Assembly (NCBI RefSeq): GCF_017302275.1
Contig: NZ_JAFLDR010000006.1
Location: 78,354 to 142,353, forward strand
Direction: 5' to 3'
Origin: Sulfuritalea sp.
Lineage (GTDB): Bacteria; Pseudomonadota; Gammaproteobacteria; Burkholderiales; Rhodocyclaceae
DNA length: 64,000 nucleotides
The position numbers and the translations under genes are program-made. The notes beneath the pieces were generated by a model. That model had not been told where the DNA came from. It saw nothing but the letters and a program-made list of their open reading frames with translations, and did not search any database. Below, piece by piece: positions 23,230 to 31,331 of this stretch (positions are counted from its first letter, which is position 1; every line of letters begins with the position of its first letter).

Positions 23230-25557
23230 ATGACCCATGATGAACTGATTCCCTTTCTGCTAGACAAGGCGCCGCTGTTCGAGAGCTTCGGGCGGGACAG
23301 CATCGAGGCGATCGTCGAAGGATCCGAGTTGCGCACCTTCGAGGGCAACGAGTCGATCATCCAGTGCGGCGACGAGGGGCGCTTCATCGGCGTCTTGCTG
23401 GACGGCCACGGCGAGATTTCGGTGGCCGACAATACGGGCGGCCGCATCGTCATGAGCCCGCTGGAAGTGGGTGACGTGTTCGGGGAAATGTCGGTGCTGA
23501 CCGGCGATCGCACCGTTGCCGACGTCATCGCGGGCAATCGTTGCCTGGTGCTTCTGATTCCCCAGGACGTGGTCAGCAGCCTCATCCTGGTCTATCCCAA
23601 GGCCATCCTGTATCTCTCGAAATTGCTCGCGGATCGCGCTCGTGCCCAGGCCGTCGATGTCACCAGCAGCCAGCTGCGCGCCCGCGCCCTGGCGCAATCC
23701 GACGACCCCTATGCGCTGAGCCTGAAGAAGGACGTGCACGGCAAGATCCTCTCAATCAATGCCGGTCTCTCCCAGATCCGCTTCGGTATCTACGACACGC
23801 ATGACGAGGCGCTGGATGTGCACGGCGTGGTCGATTGTGCCGGCTGCGAGTCGGTGCACATCACCATGACCGCCGCCGGCAAGGCGGTGCGCCGCGAACG
23901 GCCGCCCTTCGCCATCGGCGAGTTCTTCAACGTCCTGTTCGAGTCCATGCTCGAGCTCGACAACCGCTTCCTGTTTACGCCGCTGGACGTCATCGCCGTC
24001 GGCCACCGCGTGGTCCATGGCGGCAGCAAGTTCTCCAGCGCCACGGTTATCACGCCGCAGGTGCTGGCCGACATCGAAGCCCTTGCGACGTTGGCGCCGC
24101 TGCACAACCCGCACAACCTCGAAGGCATGCGCGAGGCGATGAAGTTCTTTCCCGGCGTGCCGCATGTCGCCGTGTTCGACACCGCCTTCCACCAGACGCT
24201 GCCGACCTATGCCTACCTCTACGGCCTGCCCTACGAGTGGTACAAGAAGGAGGGCATACGCCGCTACGGTTTCCACGGCACATCGCATCGCTACGTGTCG
24301 CTGAAGGCGGCGGAAGTCCTCAAGCGGCCGCTCGGCGAACTGGAGATCATTTCCTGCCACCTCGGTGTCGGCGCCTCGATGTGCGCCATCGACCACGGCC
24401 GCTCGGTGGACACCACGATGGGCATGACGCCTTCGGACGGGCTGATCATGCCCAGCCGATCCGGCAGCCTCGACCCGGCGATCATGATCCAGCTCATGGA
24501 GCGCTACAAGCTCGGTCCGGACGAACTCAACAAGCTGATCAATTCGGAAAGCGGCCTCAAGGGCATTTCCGGGATTTCCAGCGACATCCACGAGATCGAA
24601 GCCGCCGCCGCCGAGGGCCACCATCGCGCGCTGCTGGCGCACAAGGCCTTCTGCTACCAGATCCGCAAGAACATCGGCGCCTACGTCGCCGCGATGGGCG
24701 GCGTCAGCGTCCTGGCCTTCACGGGCGACATCGGCGAGACCAGTCCCGCCGTGCGCAGCCTCGCCTGCCAGGGCCTGGCCTACATGGGCATCAAGCTCGA
24801 CGAAGACAAGAACAGCAGCCTGGGCGCGGTGAGCGACTATGCGGTCATCTCCGCCGACGACTCGCCGGTCACCATCATCGTCGTCGCCAACAATGACGAA
24901 CGTCTGCTGGCATGGGAAGCCTTGCGTGCCATCGAGCGCAACCAGATCACCCTGGCGATTCGCGACGAGGCGGCGTCGCCGATTCCGATCGAGGTCTCGG
25001 CGCACCACGTGCATCTGGCCCAAGCCGATGTCGAGAAACTCTTTGGCCCCGGCCACCAGCTCACGCCGGAACATGAACTGTCGCAGCCGGGGCAGTTTGC
25101 CTGCGCCGAGAAGGTGGATCTGGTCGGCCCCAAGGGGCGCATCGCCAATGTGCGCGTGCTCGGGCCGACGCGCAAGGAAACCCAGGTCGAGATCGCCATG
25201 ACCGAGCAGTTCAAGCTGGGCGTGCAACCGCCGATACGCGAGTCCGGCGACCTTGCCAATACGCCGGGAATCCGCCTCGAAGGTCCCGCCGGGAGTACAC
25301 AGCTCGACCGGGGCGTGATCTGTGCCCAGCGTCATATCCACATGTCTCCCGAGGATGCCATGCGCCTGCGCCTGCGCGATCGCTACGTGGTGCGCGTGCG
25401 CATCGAGGGCGAGCGCGAAGTGACCTACGGCGACGTCGTGGTGCGGGTAAATCCCAACTACCGTTTGGCCATGCACATCGACACCGATGAAGGCAATGCC
25501 GGCAACATCACCACGGGCATGCAGGGCTTCATCGAGGAAATCCAGAGTCGCGCCTGA
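23230..25557 (+). CDS. Cyclic-nucleotide-binding domain / acetate kinase / PduL phosphotransacylase triple fusion
   Basis: A 775-aa three-domain protein. Residues 1-135 are a cNMP-binding beta-roll (GDVFGEMSVLTGDRTVADVI at 81-100). Residues about 171-568 are acetate kinase: N177 (ILSINAG), R260 (VGHRVVHGG), D317 (FDTAFHQTLP), H349 (YGFHGTSHR), R410 and E503 (GDIGET). Residues about 585-765 are a PduL-type phosphotransacylase with two zinc-type histidine pairs (HHVHL at 592-596, RHIHM at 701-705). Together these would convert acyl-CoA plus phosphate to acyl phosphate and then to acid plus ATP, or the reverse. Odd: V380 replaces the usual Asn of the HLGNGAS motif. It converges on a CoA-transferase gene. 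Confidence 0.9.
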   Translation: MTHDELIPFLLDKAPLFESFGRDSIEAIVEGSELRTFEGNESIIQCGDEGRFIGVLLDGHGEISVADNTGGRIVMSPLEVGDVFGEMSVLTGDRTVADVIAGNRCLVLLIPQDVVSSLILVYPKAILYLSKLLADRARAQAVDVTSSQLRARALAQSDDPYALSLKKDVHGKILSINAGLSQIRFGIYDTHDEALDVHGVVDCAGCESVHITMTAAGKAVRRERPPFAIGEFFNVLFESMLELDNRFLFTPLDVIAVGHRVVHGGSKFSSATVITPQVLADIEALATLAPLHNPHNLEGMREAMKFFPGVPHVAVFDTAFHQTLPTYAYLYGLPYEWYKKEGIRRYGFHGTSHRYVSLKAAEVLKRPLGELEIISCHLGVGASMCAIDHGRSVDTTMGMTPSDGLIMPSRSGSLDPAIMIQLMERYKLGPDELNKLINSESGLKGISGISSDIHEIEAAAAEGHHRALLAHKAFCYQIRKNIGAYVAAMGGVSVLAFTGDIGETSPAVRSLACQGLAYMGIKLDEDKNSSLGAVSDYAVISADDSPVTIIVVANNDERLLAWEALRAIERNQITLAIRDEAASPIPIEVSAHHVHLAQADVEKLFGPGHQLTPEHELSQPGQFACAEKVDLVGPKGRIANVRVLGPTRKETQVEIAMTEQFKLGVQPPIRESGDLANTPGIRLEGPAGSTQLDRGVICAQRHIHMSPEDAMRLRLRDRYVVRVRIEGEREVTYGDVVVRVNPNYRLAMHIDTDEGNAGNITTGMQGFIEEIQSRA

Positions 25558-25573: not shown

Positions 25574-27586
25574 TCAGCCGCCTGCGGACTTCAAGCGTTC
25601 CTGCGCCTCGTCGCGGCTGCCGAAGATCTGCGGGTCGGCGACGCGCTTGCCGAAGGATTCGCCGAGTCTGGCGCGCAGGAAGGTACTCGAGGTATAGCGC
25701 GTCACGTCCGTGTAGTGCCGGTCCATGATGCCCTTGACCATGGCCGTGTAATCATCGATCAGTTCCGGCGCGATGCTGAAGCGGTCGTAGTTGACGATGG
25801 CCGCCACCCTGTGGCCGATCGGCGCCAGGCGTGATTCCACGGCGGCGAGGATGCGGTCGATGTCGGCGCGGGAGCGTACCGAGAGGCCCTCGAAATTGAC
25901 GAAGAACACGTTCTGCGCCGCGTCGTAGCTCAGGCGTTGTTCGAGCGGCATTTCCAGCAGGCCGGGGCGCAGGCCCATCGGCTCCGCGCTGAAAACGCGC
26001 GCGTCCATCAGCGCTGGCGGCTGGCGCATGAGCGGAGCGAATTCCATGCGGTCCAGAATGTCGCGCCGCAGATCGACGCCGGGCGCGATCTCGATCAGTT
26101 CCAGTCCCTCGGCGCAAAGGCGGAAGACGCAGCGCTCGGTGACGTAGAGCACGGTCTTCCCGCTCGCGGCGGCAACCGGGCCGCTGAACGTGCGGTGTTC
26201 GACCTCGTTCACGAACTTCATCGCCTTGCCGTCGGCAAGAATCTTTAGGACGCCGGCTTCAAGTGCGAGTTCGAGCTTGCCGGCGGTGAAAGTGCCGACG
26301 AAGACCACCTTCTTTGCGCTCTGGCTGATGTTGATGAAGCCGCCGGCGCCGGCAAGCTTGGGGCCGAACTTCGAGACGTTCAGGTTGCCTTCCCGGTCGG
26401 CCTGGGCGAGGCCGAGAAAAGCGATGTCGAGGCCGCCGCCGTCGTAGAAATCGAACTGGCTGGGCTGGTCGACGATGGCTTGGGTATTGATTGCCGCGCC
26501 AAAGTTCAGGCCGCCGGCCGGAACGCCGCCGATCACGCCAGGCTCGGCGGTGAGGGTGATGAGGTCGAGGATCTTTTCCTCCGTCGCAACGCTGGCGATG
26601 CCTTCCGGCATGCCGATGCCGAGGTTAACCACGTCGTTTGCGGTGAGTTCCATCGCCGCGCGGCGGGCAATGATCTTGCGCTCGTCGAGCCCCATCGGTG
26701 CCACGGCCGAGATCGGTACCCGTATCTCGCCGGAAAACGCGGCACTGTAGGGTTCGATGAAGGTCTGCATGTGGTATTCGGGCTTTTCCGCCACCACCAC
26801 GCAATCCACCAGCACGCCGGGAATCTTCACCTGGCGCGGGTTCAGGGTATTGCGATCGGCGATGCGCTCGACCTGGGCGATGACGATGCCGCCGGAGTTG
26901 TGCGCCGCCATGGCGATCGCCTGTGCTTCGAGCGTCAGGGCTTCGCGCTCCATGCTGACATTGCCGTCGGAATCCGCCGTGGTGCCGCGGATGATGCCGA
27001 CATGGATCGGGAAGGCCTTGTAAAACAGAAAATCCTCGCCGTCGATCGGCATCAGGCGCACCAGGTCGACACCGCTGGCAAGGGTCCGCTGGTTGAGCTT
27101 GCCGCCGCCATGGCGCGGATCGACGAAGGTGCCGAGCCCGATCCGGGTCAAGGTTCCGGGCTTGCCGGCGGCGATATCGCGGAACAGGTGACAGATCACG
27201 CCCTGCGGCAGGTTCCAGGCCTCGATGCGGTTGGCGACCGCGAGCTGCTGCAGCGTCGGCACCAGTCCCCAATGCCCGCCAACGACTCGCCTGACCAGGC
27301 CGTCGTGGCCCAGGTGATTGAGGCCGCGCGCCTTGCCGTCGCCCTGGCCGGCGGCATACACCAGCGTGAGATCACGCGGATGGCCCAGGCCGTGGGCATC
27401 GGCCTCTTGCGTCTCGAGAAATCGCGTCTCGAGCGCGACGGCGATGTTCTCGGCAAAGCCGATGCCGACGAAGCCGCCGGTGGCGATCGTGTCGCCGTCG
27501 CGGATCAGCTTCACGGCCTGGGCGGCGCTCATGACCTTGCCGGTGTCGCCACCGCGTAGGGACGCGATCAGGGGATGCTGGGACAT
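25574..27586 (-). CDS. Acyl-CoA:acetate/3-ketoacid CoA-transferase with C-terminal extension
   Basis: A 670-aa single-chain family I CoA-transferase. Both the alpha-like part ([31 protein letters not shown]) and the beta-like part ([19 protein letters not shown]) are fused. The likely catalytic glutamate lies in [15 protein letters not shown]. About 130 C-terminal residues exceed the usual 520-530-aa YdiF/propionate CoA-transferase length. The start at 27586 has AAGGAG upstream; the frame is open further but non-conserved. It would move CoA between short acids such as acetate, propionate or ketoacids. It converges with the AckA-PduL fusion and follows the TRAP genes on the same strand behind a terminator. 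Confidence 0.88.
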
Positions 27587-27679
27587 GGGTTGCTCCTTGC
27601 GTGCTGTTGCGGACGTCGTGGATGGACGATTATCGCGCCATGCCGGATCACGGGAGTGTGACCGAAACACCGATGCCAG

Positions 27680-27745: not shown

Positions 27746-28858
27746 TTACTTCTTCTTCGGCGCTGCCTTGGCCGGCGCGCTGCGGCCGGTCTGCATGAAG
27801 TTGTCGAACGTGGCCTCGGTGAAGCGGAACCAGAGGTTCTGCTCGTCGCGGAAGGCCGCGTAGTCGGCATACACCTTCTTCCAGTTCGGGTTCTTCGCCG
27901 ACAACTCGTCGTACAGCTGCATCGCCGCGTCGTGCGCCGCCTTGAGGATGCTCTTGTCGAAGGCGGCGAGCTTGGCGCCGTTGGCCACCAGGCGCTTCAG
28001 CGCCGCCGGGTTCTTGGCGTCGTAGCGTGCCTGCATCTCGACGTGGGCGTGCGAGGCGGCGGCGGTGACGATGGCCTTGTAGTCTGCCGGCAGCCCTTCC
28101 CAGGCCTTGTTGTTGACGTACAGGGACAGCTGCGGGCCGCCTTCCCACCAGCCAGGGTAATAGTAGTGCTTGGCGACCTTGTAGAAGCCCAGTTTCTCGT
28201 CGTCATAGGGGCCGACCCACTCGGTGGCGTCGATGGTGCCCTTTTCCAGCGCCTGGTAGATTTCACCGCCGGGGATGTTCTGCGGCACGCCGCCGATCGC
28301 CGCCAGTACCTTGCCGCCGAAGCCGCCGATGCGCATCTTGAGGCCCTTGATGTCGGCCACCGACTTGATCGGCTTGCGGTACCAGCCGCCCATCTGGGCG
28401 CCGGTGTTGCCCATCGGGAAGTTGACGATGTTGTAGCCGGCATAGAACTCGCGCAGCAGCTTCATGCCGTTGCCTTCGTACATCCAGGCCGTCATCTGGC
28501 GGCTGTTGAGGCCGAAGGGAATCGCGCAGTCGATGGCGAAGGTTTCATCCTTGCCGAAGAAGTAGTAAGGCGCGGTGTGCGCGCATTCGACCGTGCCCTG
28601 CTGCACGCCGTCGACCACGCCGAAGGGGGGCATCAGTTCGCCGCCGGCATGGACGGAAATCGTGAACTTGCCGCCGGTGGACTCGCTCACCGACTTCGAG
28701 AACACCTCGGCGGCACCGTAAATGGTGTCGAGCGCCTTGGGGAAGCTCGAGGCCAGGCGCCAGCGGATGGTCGGGGACTGGGCGTGGACCGCCGGCGCGG
28801 CGCCGGCAGCCAGGATGCCGGCGATACCGGCGTTTTGCAGAAACTTGCGACGTTCCAT
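27746..28858 (-). CDS. dctP: TRAP transporter substrate-binding protein, TakP/lactate-like
   Basis: Periplasmic solute receptor of a TRAP transporter, 370 aa. Start at 28858 (MERRKFLQNAGIAGILAAGA) with GAGGAG upstream; it gives a twin-arginine-type signal peptide ending near VHAQ. Receptor features include GGWYRKPIKSVADIKGLKMR and the stretch ATEWVGPYDDEKLGFYKVA followed by YYYPGWWEGGP. These resemble the 2-oxoacid (TakP) and calcium-lactate receptor group, so small monocarboxylates are the likely ligands. It is the last of dctQ-dctM-dctP, and a terminator follows. Confidence 0.9.
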   Translation of the reverse strand: MERRKFLQNAGIAGILAAGAAPAVHAQSPTIRWRLASSFPKALDTIYGAAEVFSKSVSESTGGKFTISVHAGGELMPPFGVVDGVQQGTVECAHTAPYYFFGKDETFAIDCAIPFGLNSRQMTAWMYEGNGMKLLREFYAGYNIVNFPMGNTGAQMGGWYRKPIKSVADIKGLKMRIGGFGGKVLAAIGGVPQNIPGGEIYQALEKGTIDATEWVGPYDDEKLGFYKVAKHYYYPGWWEGGPQLSLYVNNKAWEGLPADYKAIVTAAASHAHVEMQARYDAKNPAALKRLVANGAKLAAFDKSILKAAHDAAMQLYDELSAKNPNWKKVYADYAAFRDEQNLWFRFTEATFDNFMQTGRSAPAKAAPKKK

Positions 28859-28929
28859 GTATGAGATCTCCTCGTTGTGGTTCAACCAGACAGGCGGCCC
28901 CAGGCTGGGTGCCGCCGGATACTACACCA

Positions 28930-30732
28930 TCACTTCTTGCCCTGTTTCAAGGACTGTTCGAGCGCTTTGCCCGGATCGTCCGCCTCGTCTTCCTTGTCGG
29001 CCTTGCCGTCCGCGCCTTCCTTGTCCTTTTCGCCATCGTCCTCCTCGGCCTCCGGCGCCATGGACTCCAGGCTACCGGGAGCCTCGATCTGGACATCCTG
29101 GGTGCTTGCCGCGGCCGGCTTGTCCAGGCTGTCGAGCACCAGGTTCGGGTAGATCACCACGGCAGAGACCATGATCAGCTGCAGGATGATGAAGGCGATC
29201 GCGCCCTTGTAGATCTGCGTCGTGGTCACCGCCGGGATGCGCTCGTTGGTGACGCGGTCGTTGTAGTCGGACTTCGCCGCCACGCTGCGCAGGTAGAACA
29301 GGGCGAAGCCGAAGGGCGGGGTGAGGAAGGAGGTCTGCAGGTTCATGGCGACGATGACGCCGAACCAGATCAGGGCATCGCTGCCGGCCGGCAGCAGGGC
29401 CGGCAGGATCTTCTCCGCCACCGGCGCCAGGATGGGCACGACGATGAAGGCGATTTCGAAGAAGTCGATGAACATGCCGAGGATGAAGATCAGCAGATTC
29501 ACGATAATCAGGAAACCCATGGCGCCGCCGGGCAGCTTGTCGAACAGGTGCTCGACGAACTTGTGGCCGTCGGCGGCGTTGAAAGTGAAGGAGAACACCG
29601 TCGAGCCGATCAGGATGAAAAGCACGAACACCGAAAGCTTGGTGGTGTTCTCCAGCGCCTGCACCAGCAGGTCCTTCGACAACTGGCGGCGAGCGATCGC
29701 CATCACCAGCGCGCCGAGCGCGCCCATCGCGCCGCCCTCGGTCGGCGTCGCCAGGCCGAGGAAGATGGTGCCCAGCACCAGGAAGATCAGCACCAGCGGC
29801 GGGATCAGAACGAAGGTCACGCGTTCGGAGAGCTTGGAGAGCAGACCCATGCCGGTGAGTTTGTTGATCAGCGCGAGGCCCAGCGCGACGAACGAGGAGA
29901 TAGTCATCGACAGGATCAGGATTTCGTCGCCGGGCGCCGCGTTTTCGCGGCCGGTCCAGCCCTTGATCAGGCCGTCGTGCACCTGGGACCAGGCGATGCC
30001 GGCCGCCGCCGCGACCAGCAGCAGCAGCAGCAGCGAAATGTGGCCCGAGGACCCATTGGCTTCCTTGTAGATGCGCGCCTCGGCGGGCAGGGCCGGCACC
30101 CAGGCCGGCTTGACGAAGGCCACCACGATGACGAACAAGGCATAAAGGCAGACCAGCAGCACGCCGGGGACCAGGGCGCCGGCATACAGGTCGCCGACCG
30201 AGCGGCCGAGCTGGTCGGCCATCACGATCAGCACCAGCGAGGGCGGGATGGCCTGGGCCAGGGTGCCCGAGGCGGTGATCACGCCGGTGGCGATGGCGCG
30301 GTTGTAGCCGTAGCGCAGCATGATCGGCAGCGAGATCAGGCCCATCGAGATCACCGCCGCGGCGACCACGCCGGTGGTGGCGGCGAGCAGGGCGCCGACG
30401 AAGATCACGGCAAGGGCGAGGCCGCCGCGCAGCGGGCCGAACACCTGGCCGACGGTCTCCAGCAGGTCCTCGGCCATGCCGCTGCGCTCGAGGATGATGC
30501 CCATGAAGGTGAAGAAGGGGATGGCCAGCAGCGTGTCGTTCTGCATGATGCCGAAGATGCGCAACGGCAGCGCCTGGAACAGCGAGGGTGGGAACATGCT
30601 CGCTTCCATGCCGAGGAAGCCGAAAAAAAGCCCCGTCGAGGCGAGCGCAAACGCCACCGGAAAGCCGGTGAGGAGAAAGAACAGCAGGCCGCAAAACATC
30701 AGCGGCACGAAGTTTTGGGCGATGAATTCCAT
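28930..30732 (-). CDS. dctM: TRAP transporter large permease with acidic C-terminal tail
   Basis: The 600-aa DctM subunit, with 12 or more predicted membrane helices, carries the sodium-coupled transport path. Family segments include FMGIILERSGMAEDLLETVG, ALAVIFVGALLAATTGVVAA and PTEGGAMGALGALVMA. The last 60 or so residues (SMAPEAEEDDGEKDKEGADG onward) form an unusual Lys/Glu/Asp-rich cytoplasmic tail not needed for the fold. It overlaps the dctQ stop by 1 nt and precedes dctP by 71 nt. Confidence 0.92.
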   Translation of the reverse strand: MEFIAQNFVPLMFCGLLFFLLTGFPVAFALASTGLFFGFLGMEASMFPPSLFQALPLRIFGIMQNDTLLAIPFFTFMGIILERSGMAEDLLETVGQVFGPLRGGLALAVIFVGALLAATTGVVAAAVISMGLISLPIMLRYGYNRAIATGVITASGTLAQAIPPSLVLIVMADQLGRSVGDLYAGALVPGVLLVCLYALFVIVVAFVKPAWVPALPAEARIYKEANGSSGHISLLLLLLVAAAAGIAWSQVHDGLIKGWTGRENAAPGDEILILSMTISSFVALGLALINKLTGMGLLSKLSERVTFVLIPPLVLIFLVLGTIFLGLATPTEGGAMGALGALVMAIARRQLSKDLLVQALENTTKLSVFVLFILIGSTVFSFTFNAADGHKFVEHLFDKLPGGAMGFLIIVNLLIFILGMFIDFFEIAFIVVPILAPVAEKILPALLPAGSDALIWFGVIVAMNLQTSFLTPPFGFALFYLRSVAAKSDYNDRVTNERIPAVTTTQIYKGAIAFIILQLIMVSAVVIYPNLVLDSLDKPAAASTQDVQIEAPGSLESMAPEAEEDDGEKDKEGADGKADKEDEADDPGKALEQSLKQGKK

Positions 30733-31331
30733 CAGCGGACTTCCTCTCGTACGTGTGCGGCGTGTTCCTCGATCTCGTGGCCGATCTCATCCTTGGCCGC
30801 GGTTGCTTCATGGCCGATGGCATCGGGTGCAGCGCCGGCGAGAAAGGCCGCGCGCTTGATCAGTTCGGAGGCGCCCTGCAGCCCCAGCAGCGTGAAGCCG
30901 AGCGGGATCAGTGCATACATCGGCCAGCGAATCAGGCCGCCGGCGTTCTGCGACATCTCGCCGCTGTTCCAGGCATTCACGAACAGGGGCCAGGAGATCA
31001 CGACCAGCATGTAGCACAGCGGGAACAGGAAGACGACGATGCCGACGATGTCGATGATGTTGCGTGTCTTTGCCGAGAGGTGGTTGGAAATGAAGTCGAT
31101 GCGCACGTGGGCGTTCTTGAGGAAGGCGAAGCCGGCGCCGAGCATGAAGACGGAGGCAAACAGGTACCACTGGATTTCCAGCAGCGCGTTCGAACTGGTG
31201 TCGAAGGCCTTGCGCACGATGGCGTTGCCGGCGGAGATCAGCACGGCGGCGAGGATCAGCCAGATCAGACTGCGGCCGAGCCGGTCGTTCATCCAGTCGA
31301 CCCCGCGGGAGAATTTCAACATGGCGTTCAT
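30732..31331 (-). CDS. dctQ: TRAP transporter small permease
   Basis: The 199-aa DctQ subunit, with four predicted membrane helices: residues near WLILAAVLISAGNAIVRKAF, WYLFASVFMLGAGFAFLKNA, DIVGIVVFLFPLCYMLVVIS and YALIPLGFTLLGLQGASE. The conserved HVRIDFISNHLS lies after the second helix. A charged C-terminal tail (EEHAAHVREEVR) follows. It is the first gene of the TRAP operon, with the divergent GntR-family regulator 306 nt away. Confidence 0.9.
   Translation of the reverse strand: MNAMLKFSRGVDWMNDRLGRSLIWLILAAVLISAGNAIVRKAFDTSSNALLEIQWYLFASVFMLGAGFAFLKNAHVRIDFISNHLSAKTRNIIDIVGIVVFLFPLCYMLVVISWPLFVNAWNSGEMSQNAGGLIRWPMYALIPLGFTLLGLQGASELIKRAAFLAGAAPDAIGHEATAAKDEIGHEIEEHAAHVREEVR

Follow-up and report, generated by a model that had tools for sequence, protein, structure and literature searches.

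A PduL phosphotransacylase fused to a CNB-like domain and to an acetate kinase fold with a replaced ATP half-site

Acetate kinase (AckA) and phosphotransacylases sit at the node between acetate or propionate and ATP and set the level of acetyl phosphate, a bacterial signal. In a 64,000-nucleotide stretch of Sulfuritalea sp. DNA (assembly GCF_017302275.1, contig NZ_JAFLDR010000006.1; hereafter the window), a single open reading frame joins a domain of the cyclic-nucleotide-binding (CNB) type, a domain with the acetate kinase fold and a PduL-type phosphotransacylase, raising the question of what such a chain does. An earlier note on this DNA had read it as acetate kinase and phosphotransacylase on one chain that could channel acyl phosphate and be controlled by a cyclic nucleotide. 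The reading favored here, to which we give slightly better than even chances, is a PduL phosphotransacylase carrying an AckA-fold domain that binds acyl phosphate and is blind to ATP, together with a non-canonical CNB domain. As judged from alignments and a predicted structure, the chain has three folds, an intact PduL site, an intact acyl half-site in the kinase-like domain, an ATP/Mg half-site that is replaced clade-wide, and a coding sequence under purifying selection.

Domain architecture and integrity of the fusion

The reading frame runs through 775 uninterrupted codons from an ATG start (Table 1), and the three domains predicted earlier were all found on it. A Pfam domain search matched cNMP_binding at residues 35–119 (E 2.4e-12), Acetate_kinase at residues 172–561 (E 1.6e-126) and PTAC (PduL) at residues 586–759 (E 4.2e-76), each passing its curated cut-off. 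NCBIfam matches above cut-off name the protein ackA (TIGR00016) and phosphate propanoyltransferase (NF011652). These assignments are supported by a confident AlphaFold2 model built from a 46-row alignment (mean predicted local distance difference test [pLDDT] 89.0, predicted template modeling score 0.87), in which pLDDT falls below 50 across three or more residues only at residues 142–144. Foldseek matched the middle part of the model to acetate kinases over the whole domain (EC 2.7.2.1, PF00871; 1g99 and 1tuy from M. thermophila, and 2iir; template modeling [TM] score 0.92–0.93 on target) and the last part to the two-domain PduL fold of 5cuo (TM 0.95–0.96, root mean square deviation 1.0). The first part was matched, more weakly, to CNB proteins (best E 5.7e-10, TM on target 0.22–0.36).

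A fusion created by sequencing or assembly, which the earlier note had named as a possibility, is ruled out, because full-length copies occur in nine of 31 same-genus genomes (own genome included; the other eight copies are 87–94% identical) and the AckA-PduL order recurs in one betaproteobacterial clade in 70 rows representing 66 distinct proteins. This 66-protein set consists of 36 clade rows and 34 further fusions, with repeats removed; 43 members were read across the whole CNB domain; the remaining 23 were taken from 3.5-kb loci, whose sequence starts within that domain, at residues 82–88. Counted as such, the three-domain order is present in those 43 clade proteins and in at least nine proteins from other phyla. 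In a tenth same-genus genome (G009, locus L015), an incomplete draft, the fusion is split into two frames near residue 472; this copy was excluded from every alignment.

A decaying pseudogene is likewise ruled out. Ratios of nonsynonymous to synonymous substitution (dN/dS) within the genus lie between 0.07 and 0.11 (nine copies, 36 pairs: AckA-like domain 0.079, PduL 0.072, CNB 0.108), and 16 translated copies are free of internal stops. Since a dN/dS of 0.079 reflects purifying selection, the AckA-like domain itself is not decaying.

The kinase-like and PduL active sites

The earlier note credited the kinase-like domain with most of its catalytic residues, which holds for the acyl-phosphate half of the site but not for the ATP/Mg half. 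In the numbering of the M. thermophila enzyme (MtACK), R91, H123, D148, H180 and R241 are each retained in 66 of 66 clade proteins; of the acetate-pocket residues, V93 and P232 are present in 36/36 and L122 in 34/36 clade rows. The window protein holds all eight, and seven of them (L122 excepted) are common to the clade, as in AckA. The glutamate proposed as catalytic, E503, was misplaced: it corresponds to MtACK E334, and the position of the metal/catalytic glutamate (E384) is occupied by D556. Unlike AckA, the clade has replacements in PHOSPHATE1, PHOSPHATE2, LOOP3, LOOP4 and ADENOSINE and at E384 (T240 and R285 being kept in few proteins), and the domain has two others fused to it. S10, S12, K14, N211, G239, G331 and E384 are each retained in 0 of the 66 clade proteins.

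Published work allows roles to be given to these residues. By comparison with ligand-bound MtACK, the acetate residues of StAckA are described as V93, L122, P234, R243 and A181, its metal residues as N10, K17, D150 and E387, and its nucleotide set as including N213, R287, G333 and N337 and also R91, H123, H182 and R243 (PMC3475010). The members of this set near the transferred phosphate are kept in the clade, and N211, G331 and N335 are lost. According to the MtACK study, the beta-phosphate is in contact with N211 and, together with the alpha-phosphate, with G331, and R285 is placed at the adenine ring; when N211, G239 or G331 was changed singly, activity fell 6- to 200-fold (PMC4390882). Activity was reported as undetectable in PgAck E385A, the equivalent of E384 (PMC6461089), and Gly at 331 is said to be completely conserved among ATP-dependent acetate kinases (PMC5517563). 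Because S12, K14, N211, G239, G331 and E384 are replaced in 66/66 clade proteins and published single changes at such positions cost activity, a working acetate kinase, as claimed in the earlier note, is judged unlikely.

An alignment of AckA-type domains places these changes in context. It has 122 rows (36 from the clade, nine other three-domain proteins, 46 two-domain proteins, 30 without a PduL match, and MtACK); some of its nominally stand-alone rows are stop-to-stop frames and one is a fragment. Among 392 columns compared, 95 show at least 85% conservation in the rows that do not belong to the clade. Of these 95, the clade shares 68 in at least 90% of its rows and has replaced 19 in at least 90% of them. 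The 19 include S10, S12, K14, N211, G239, T240, R285, G331, T382 and E384; we know of no ATP contact among the other nine (G35, A63, L71, G77, A163, G248, L268, R308 and I388). In scored rows outside the clade, G331 and E384 are each found in 85/85, G239 in 83/83 and S12 in 35/35, the values for S10, S12 and K14 resting on 35 rows, with many two-domain rows losing the PHOSPHATE1 columns to the local match. Two-domain ACK-PduL proteins and the three-domain proteins of other phyla share with the clade the order of AckA followed by PduL, but G331 and E384 are kept in every scored row and the ATP site is mostly kept. N211 is variable among them, being S, G or H in some.

Variability within the 66 proteins follows the same division. 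Mean entropy was 0.88 over 10 ATP-side columns, 0.65 over the whole ACK domain and 0.07 over 11 acyl/phosphoryl-side columns, the 10 and the 11 having been hand-picked by us from published roles, a choice to be counted with the objections given below. Entropy was 0 at nine acyl/phosphoryl-side columns (R91, V93, H123, D148, F179, H180, P232, R241 and R340). Because the ATP-side columns vary more than the domain average, constraint on them appears relaxed; judged by sequence variation, the ATP site looks released and the acyl site frozen.

The PduL part is intact in sequence, in line with the earlier note. Zinc ligands H593, H595, E654, H702, H704 and H749 and the phosphate contact R648 are present in the window protein. 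In the numbering of the R. palustris enzyme (rPduL), placed by ungapped alignment onto the ligands described for it (PMC4784909), H48, H50, E109, H157, H159 and R103 are found in 66/66 clade proteins and H204 in 65/66, the exception being one alignment gap. The domain is 46% identical to rPduL (5cuo, PF06130), with which it superimposes closely, and in a 16-row alignment the equivalents of the zinc ligands and of Arg103, Ser127, Gln74, Gln77, Arg97 and Arg194 are kept. It differs from rPduL in lying within a fusion, in lacking conserved neighbors, and in having His615 in place of rPduL Lys70.

Table 1 Features of the fusion and of adjacent genes (positions are those of the window; MtACK residues in parentheses)
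Feature	Position	Strand	Basis
Whole ORF, CNB-like + AckA-like + PduL fusion, 775 aa	23230..25557	+	
Residues 1–135, CNB-like beta-roll	23230..23634	+	Pfam cNMP_binding 35–119, model
PBC tip Glu86	23485–23487	+	alignment
PBC tip Thr95, Arg in canonical PBCs	23512–23514	+	alignment
Residues 136–170, linker, most variable part	23635..23739	+	entropy, pLDDT
Residues 171–568, acetate-kinase-fold domain	23740..24933	+	Pfam, Foldseek
PHOSPHATE1 changes L180 (S10), Q182 (S12), R184 (K14)	23767..23781	+	alignment, M. thermophila (Mt) numbering
Retained acyl/phosphoryl residues R260 (R91), H292 (H123), D317 (D148), H349 (H180), R410 (R241)	24007..24459	+	alignment
PHOSPHATE2 change V380 (N211)	24367..24369	+	alignment
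LOOP3 changes P408 (G239), S409 (T240)	24451..24456	+	alignment
LOOP4 change H454 (R285, adenine-plane Arg)	24589..24591	+	alignment
ADENOSINE change D500 (G331)	24727..24729	+	alignment
Metal-site change D556 (E384)	24895..24897	+	alignment
Residues 585–765, PduL-type phosphotransacylase	24982..25524	+	Pfam, alignment, Foldseek
Convergent CoA-transferase-family gene (CoA_trans; FadX-like), 16 bp from fusion	25574..27670	-	
TRAP transporter genes DctP, DctM, DctQ	27746–31331	-	
ORF, open reading frame; PBC, phosphate-binding cassette.

Possible functions of the AckA-like and CNB-like domains

From these sites we infer an active PduL part, no use of ATP, binding of acyl phosphate by the AckA-like domain and, if there is any, the regulation outlined here. 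The PduL part would interconvert acyl-CoA and phosphate with acyl phosphate and CoA, thereby making or consuming acetyl or propionyl phosphate. The AckA-like domain could no longer use ATP or ADP but would keep its capacity to bind acyl phosphate or a short carboxylate; it may bind the PduL product or the free acid and feed its level back on PduL or, alternatively, may slowly hydrolyze acyl phosphate. The CNB-like domain, not a canonical sensor of cyclic AMP or cyclic GMP, might provide a second regulatory input in answer to some ligand, or might be an assembly element. More tentatively, and at well under even chances, the protein could be a pseudo-acetate-kinase, in which the AckA fold, no longer serving ATP, would sense acyl phosphate or short carboxylates and control PduL on the same chain, beside a CNB domain without cyclic-nucleotide contacts. 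If so, the enzyme would read and set the acetyl- or propionyl-phosphate level instead of making ATP.

Several observations weigh against an ATP-blind, acyl-phosphate-binding domain. Retained N7 (63/66), D148 and, in most proteins, D283 fit some phosphoryl-transfer function, and R285 and T240 persist in 7/66 and 6/66 clade proteins. Several of the new residues are fairly constant in their own right, with Q at S12 in 60/66, P at G239 in 58/66, D at G331 in 55/66 (otherwise E in 8, R in 2 and Q in 1) and D at E384 in 58/66 (otherwise N in 6 and H in 2). Such constancy could indicate a new specific function or partner rather than loss, and D in place of E384 might still hold a metal. A kept acyl half-site is also no proof of acyl-phosphate binding.

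The most probable alternative, which we nevertheless consider rather unlikely, is that the AckA-like domain is catalytic with another phosphoryl donor or acceptor (pyrophosphate/phosphate as in Entamoeba, or polyphosphate) and, with PduL, couples acyl-CoA to it. An invariant acyl/phosphoryl half-site beside a replaced ATP side is consistent with such a switch, as is the fair constancy of the new residues Q182, D500 and D556. The carriers Dechloromonas, Rhodocyclus and Zoogloea moreover belong to groups that include polyphosphate accumulators. Dechloromonas is named as one in the title of PMC8630035. The pyrophosphate-using Entamoeba enzyme EhACK (4h0o) likewise lacks the ADENOSINE Gly, being non-Gly at MtACK position 331 and non-Asn at 211 (PMC5517563, PMC4390882), and four sequences, presumably of Anaerolineae type, are described with Asp at the ADENOSINE Gly position (PMC5517563). 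However, the Gln-Met of EhACK is Asp-Ile in the window protein, and the PHOSPHATE2 loop, longer in EhACK, is of normal length (PMC5517563 for EhACK); with the motif HLGVG it is not extended and lacks the extra Gly of EhACK. Acidic D331 and the hydrophobic residues at N211 would remove beta-phosphate contacts that pyrophosphate should need, the ATP-side columns vary more than the domain average, and EhACK-like swaps in MtACK and E. coli AckA are reported to have given no pyrophosphate use (PMC5517563).

The ATP-forming, cyclic-nucleotide-gated enzyme of the earlier note is improbable for this protein. In its favor, all three folds are present, and of the nine listed three-domain proteins from other phyla, two have a partly altered ATP site and seven one that is largely canonical, so that these seven may work as ATP-forming bifunctional enzymes; such an enzyme may fit the relatives in other phyla in part but does not fit the clade, where the ATP/Mg residues are replaced in every protein. 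The two partly altered sites, in Magnetominusculus and Magnetobacterium (L084 and L093), are changed at S10, N211 and R285, which may mark a separate move of the kind made by the clade. Against an ATP-forming role, too, the same genome has a second, separate AckA, canonical at the columns read, PHOSPHATE1 not being among them. A second AckA match of this kind occurs in 14 of the 17 genomes that carry a fusion (the remaining three are 79–81% complete). For acetate kinase activity the cell can probably do without the fusion. Just upstream of the second AckA in the own genome lies a weak Pta-family match (69 bits against a curated cut-off of 311).

Gating by a cyclic nucleotide is not supported either. 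The CNB-like domain resembles those of PKA, PKG and CRP in fold and in its significant Pfam match, and the window protein has Glu86 of the phosphate-binding cassette (PBC), the ribose Glu, together with the adjacent Arg94. Glu86 is shared by 9/9 own-genus proteins but by only 19/64 scored clade rows, and by 19/43 of the proteins read over the whole CNB domain. Where PKA, PKG and CRP have the phosphate-binding Arg of the PBC, the window protein has Thr95, and Arg is found there in 0/66 clade proteins, which have I, T, L, V, S, M or N instead; the nine listed other-phyla three-domain proteins likewise lack it. Arg stands one residue earlier in 50/66 (R94 in the window protein) and might be a shifted PBC Arg, as the alignment is ungapped but CNB loop lengths vary. 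The segment RTVADV is identical in T. cruzi PKAR (6ftf), described as a CNB protein activated by nucleosides rather than by cyclic AMP (PMC10959531). By our alignment, however, the position of the diagnostic Glu of kinetoplastid proteins (RBC Glu; PMC10959531) is Ser88 here, and nucleoside sensing as in kinetoplastid PKA is kept as a lead only. In Verrucomicrobium sp. BvORR106 (L082:8053-9960), the gene directly upstream of the fusion encodes a CNB domain fused to a fumarase/aspartase-type lyase; in that organism, metabolic enzymes bearing CNB domains may be more common. CNB hits were also obtained in ORFs of the own genome (L003–L006).

Least probable of all is a ligand-free scaffold serving dimerization or stability, with PduL as the sole function. 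In its favor, published structures show AckA as a dimer and PduL as a dimer or a larger assembly (PMC3475010, PMC4784909), and the ATP site is freed from constraint, but nine strictly invariant residues in the acyl/phosphoryl-side pocket are more than a scaffold needs.

The favored reading, of a PduL enzyme with an ATP-blind AckA fold, bears on metabolic models of carriers such as Dechloromonas, Zoogloea, Rhodocyclus and relatives, which may credit the fusion with ATP synthesis because domain models name it as acetate/propionate kinase and phosphate propanoyltransferase. A natural comparison is also on offer: Verrucomicrobium- and Planctomycetota-type proteins share the three-domain architecture and have a largely intact ATP site, which the clade lacks.

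Distribution and neighboring genes

The ACK-PduL fusion itself is widespread. A scan of genome contigs, of which the best 80 matches were kept so that counts from other phyla are lower bounds, listed many two-domain ACK-PduL proteins, and named three-domain carriers among the matches listed are Zoogloea oleivorans, Dechloromonas denitrificans, D. hankyongensis, Azonexus hydrophilus and Rhodocyclus purpureus. The three-domain proteins outside the clade, at least nine, come from Akkermansiaceae, Verrucomicrobium, Planctomycetota, Brocadiia, Aminicenantes, Magnetominusculus, Magnetobacterium and two Deltaproteobacteria. In a tree built by a quick method and rooted at the midpoint, from the 117 of the 122 alignment rows with 290 aa or more, the clade forms one 36-row group (support 100, branch 0.75) beside canonical-site three-domain proteins, a placement which suggests that the fusion predates the betaproteobacterial clade.

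Within the own order, the PduL domain was found in 8 of 399 sampled genomes, all eight of the own family (which we take to be Rhodocyclaceae) and in open frames of 777–951 aa. In the own family it was found in 116 of 395 sampled genomes; counted by hand, the PduL places number 117, of which 90 are in frames of at least 777 aa and 27 in frames shorter than 350 aa. Some family copies are identical over residues 201–761 to the Dechloromonas denitrificans and Rhodocyclus purpureus records, on which ground the family is taken to be that of these two species. The short frames are not broken-off pieces of the fusion in the 12 of 27 that were fetched: all 12 are just 46–49% identical to the PduL part of the fusion, seven adjoin a separate AckA ORF (400–436 aa) and five have no AckA in the fetched stretch. 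These stand-alone ORFs therefore look like a different lineage. The other 15 include the broken G009 copy, one frame truncated by a contig end and one 32-residue fragment. Among the open-access titles and abstract beginnings listed, no paper described the fusion or an inactive acetate kinase homologue.

The gene upstream of the fusion, on the same strand and 105 bp away, has a methyltransferase match. The convergent CoA-transferase-family gene that the earlier note had taken as strengthening a carboxylate-metabolism role is present; the FadX-like match leaves about 135 residues of its 698-aa product uncovered. As support it is weak, for it lies near the fusion in 7/9 own-genus loci and in 0/15 other loci. 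This comparison used 24 of 32 loci; the other eight were dropped, since a simple ORF picker had chosen a longer overlapping frame in place of the fusion. A microcompartment or operon role was rejected, as neighbors differ between genera across the 24 loci (shell genes were not searched for), and no phosphoketolase was found beside fusions of distant relatives among ten ORFs scanned from eight loci. Beyond the CoA-transferase gene lie TRAP transporter genes (Table 1).

Two further loci carry unusual forms of the fusion. Rhodocyclus purpureus (L076:9821-14794) has two tandem, diverged three-domain copies, both without S10, S12, K14, N211, G239, G331 and E384 and with Asp at N7. A 1363-aa stop-to-stop frame at L137:5020-9108, of uncertain true start, has ACK-PduL at its end, preceded by about 770 residues without any Pfam match at 1e-5.

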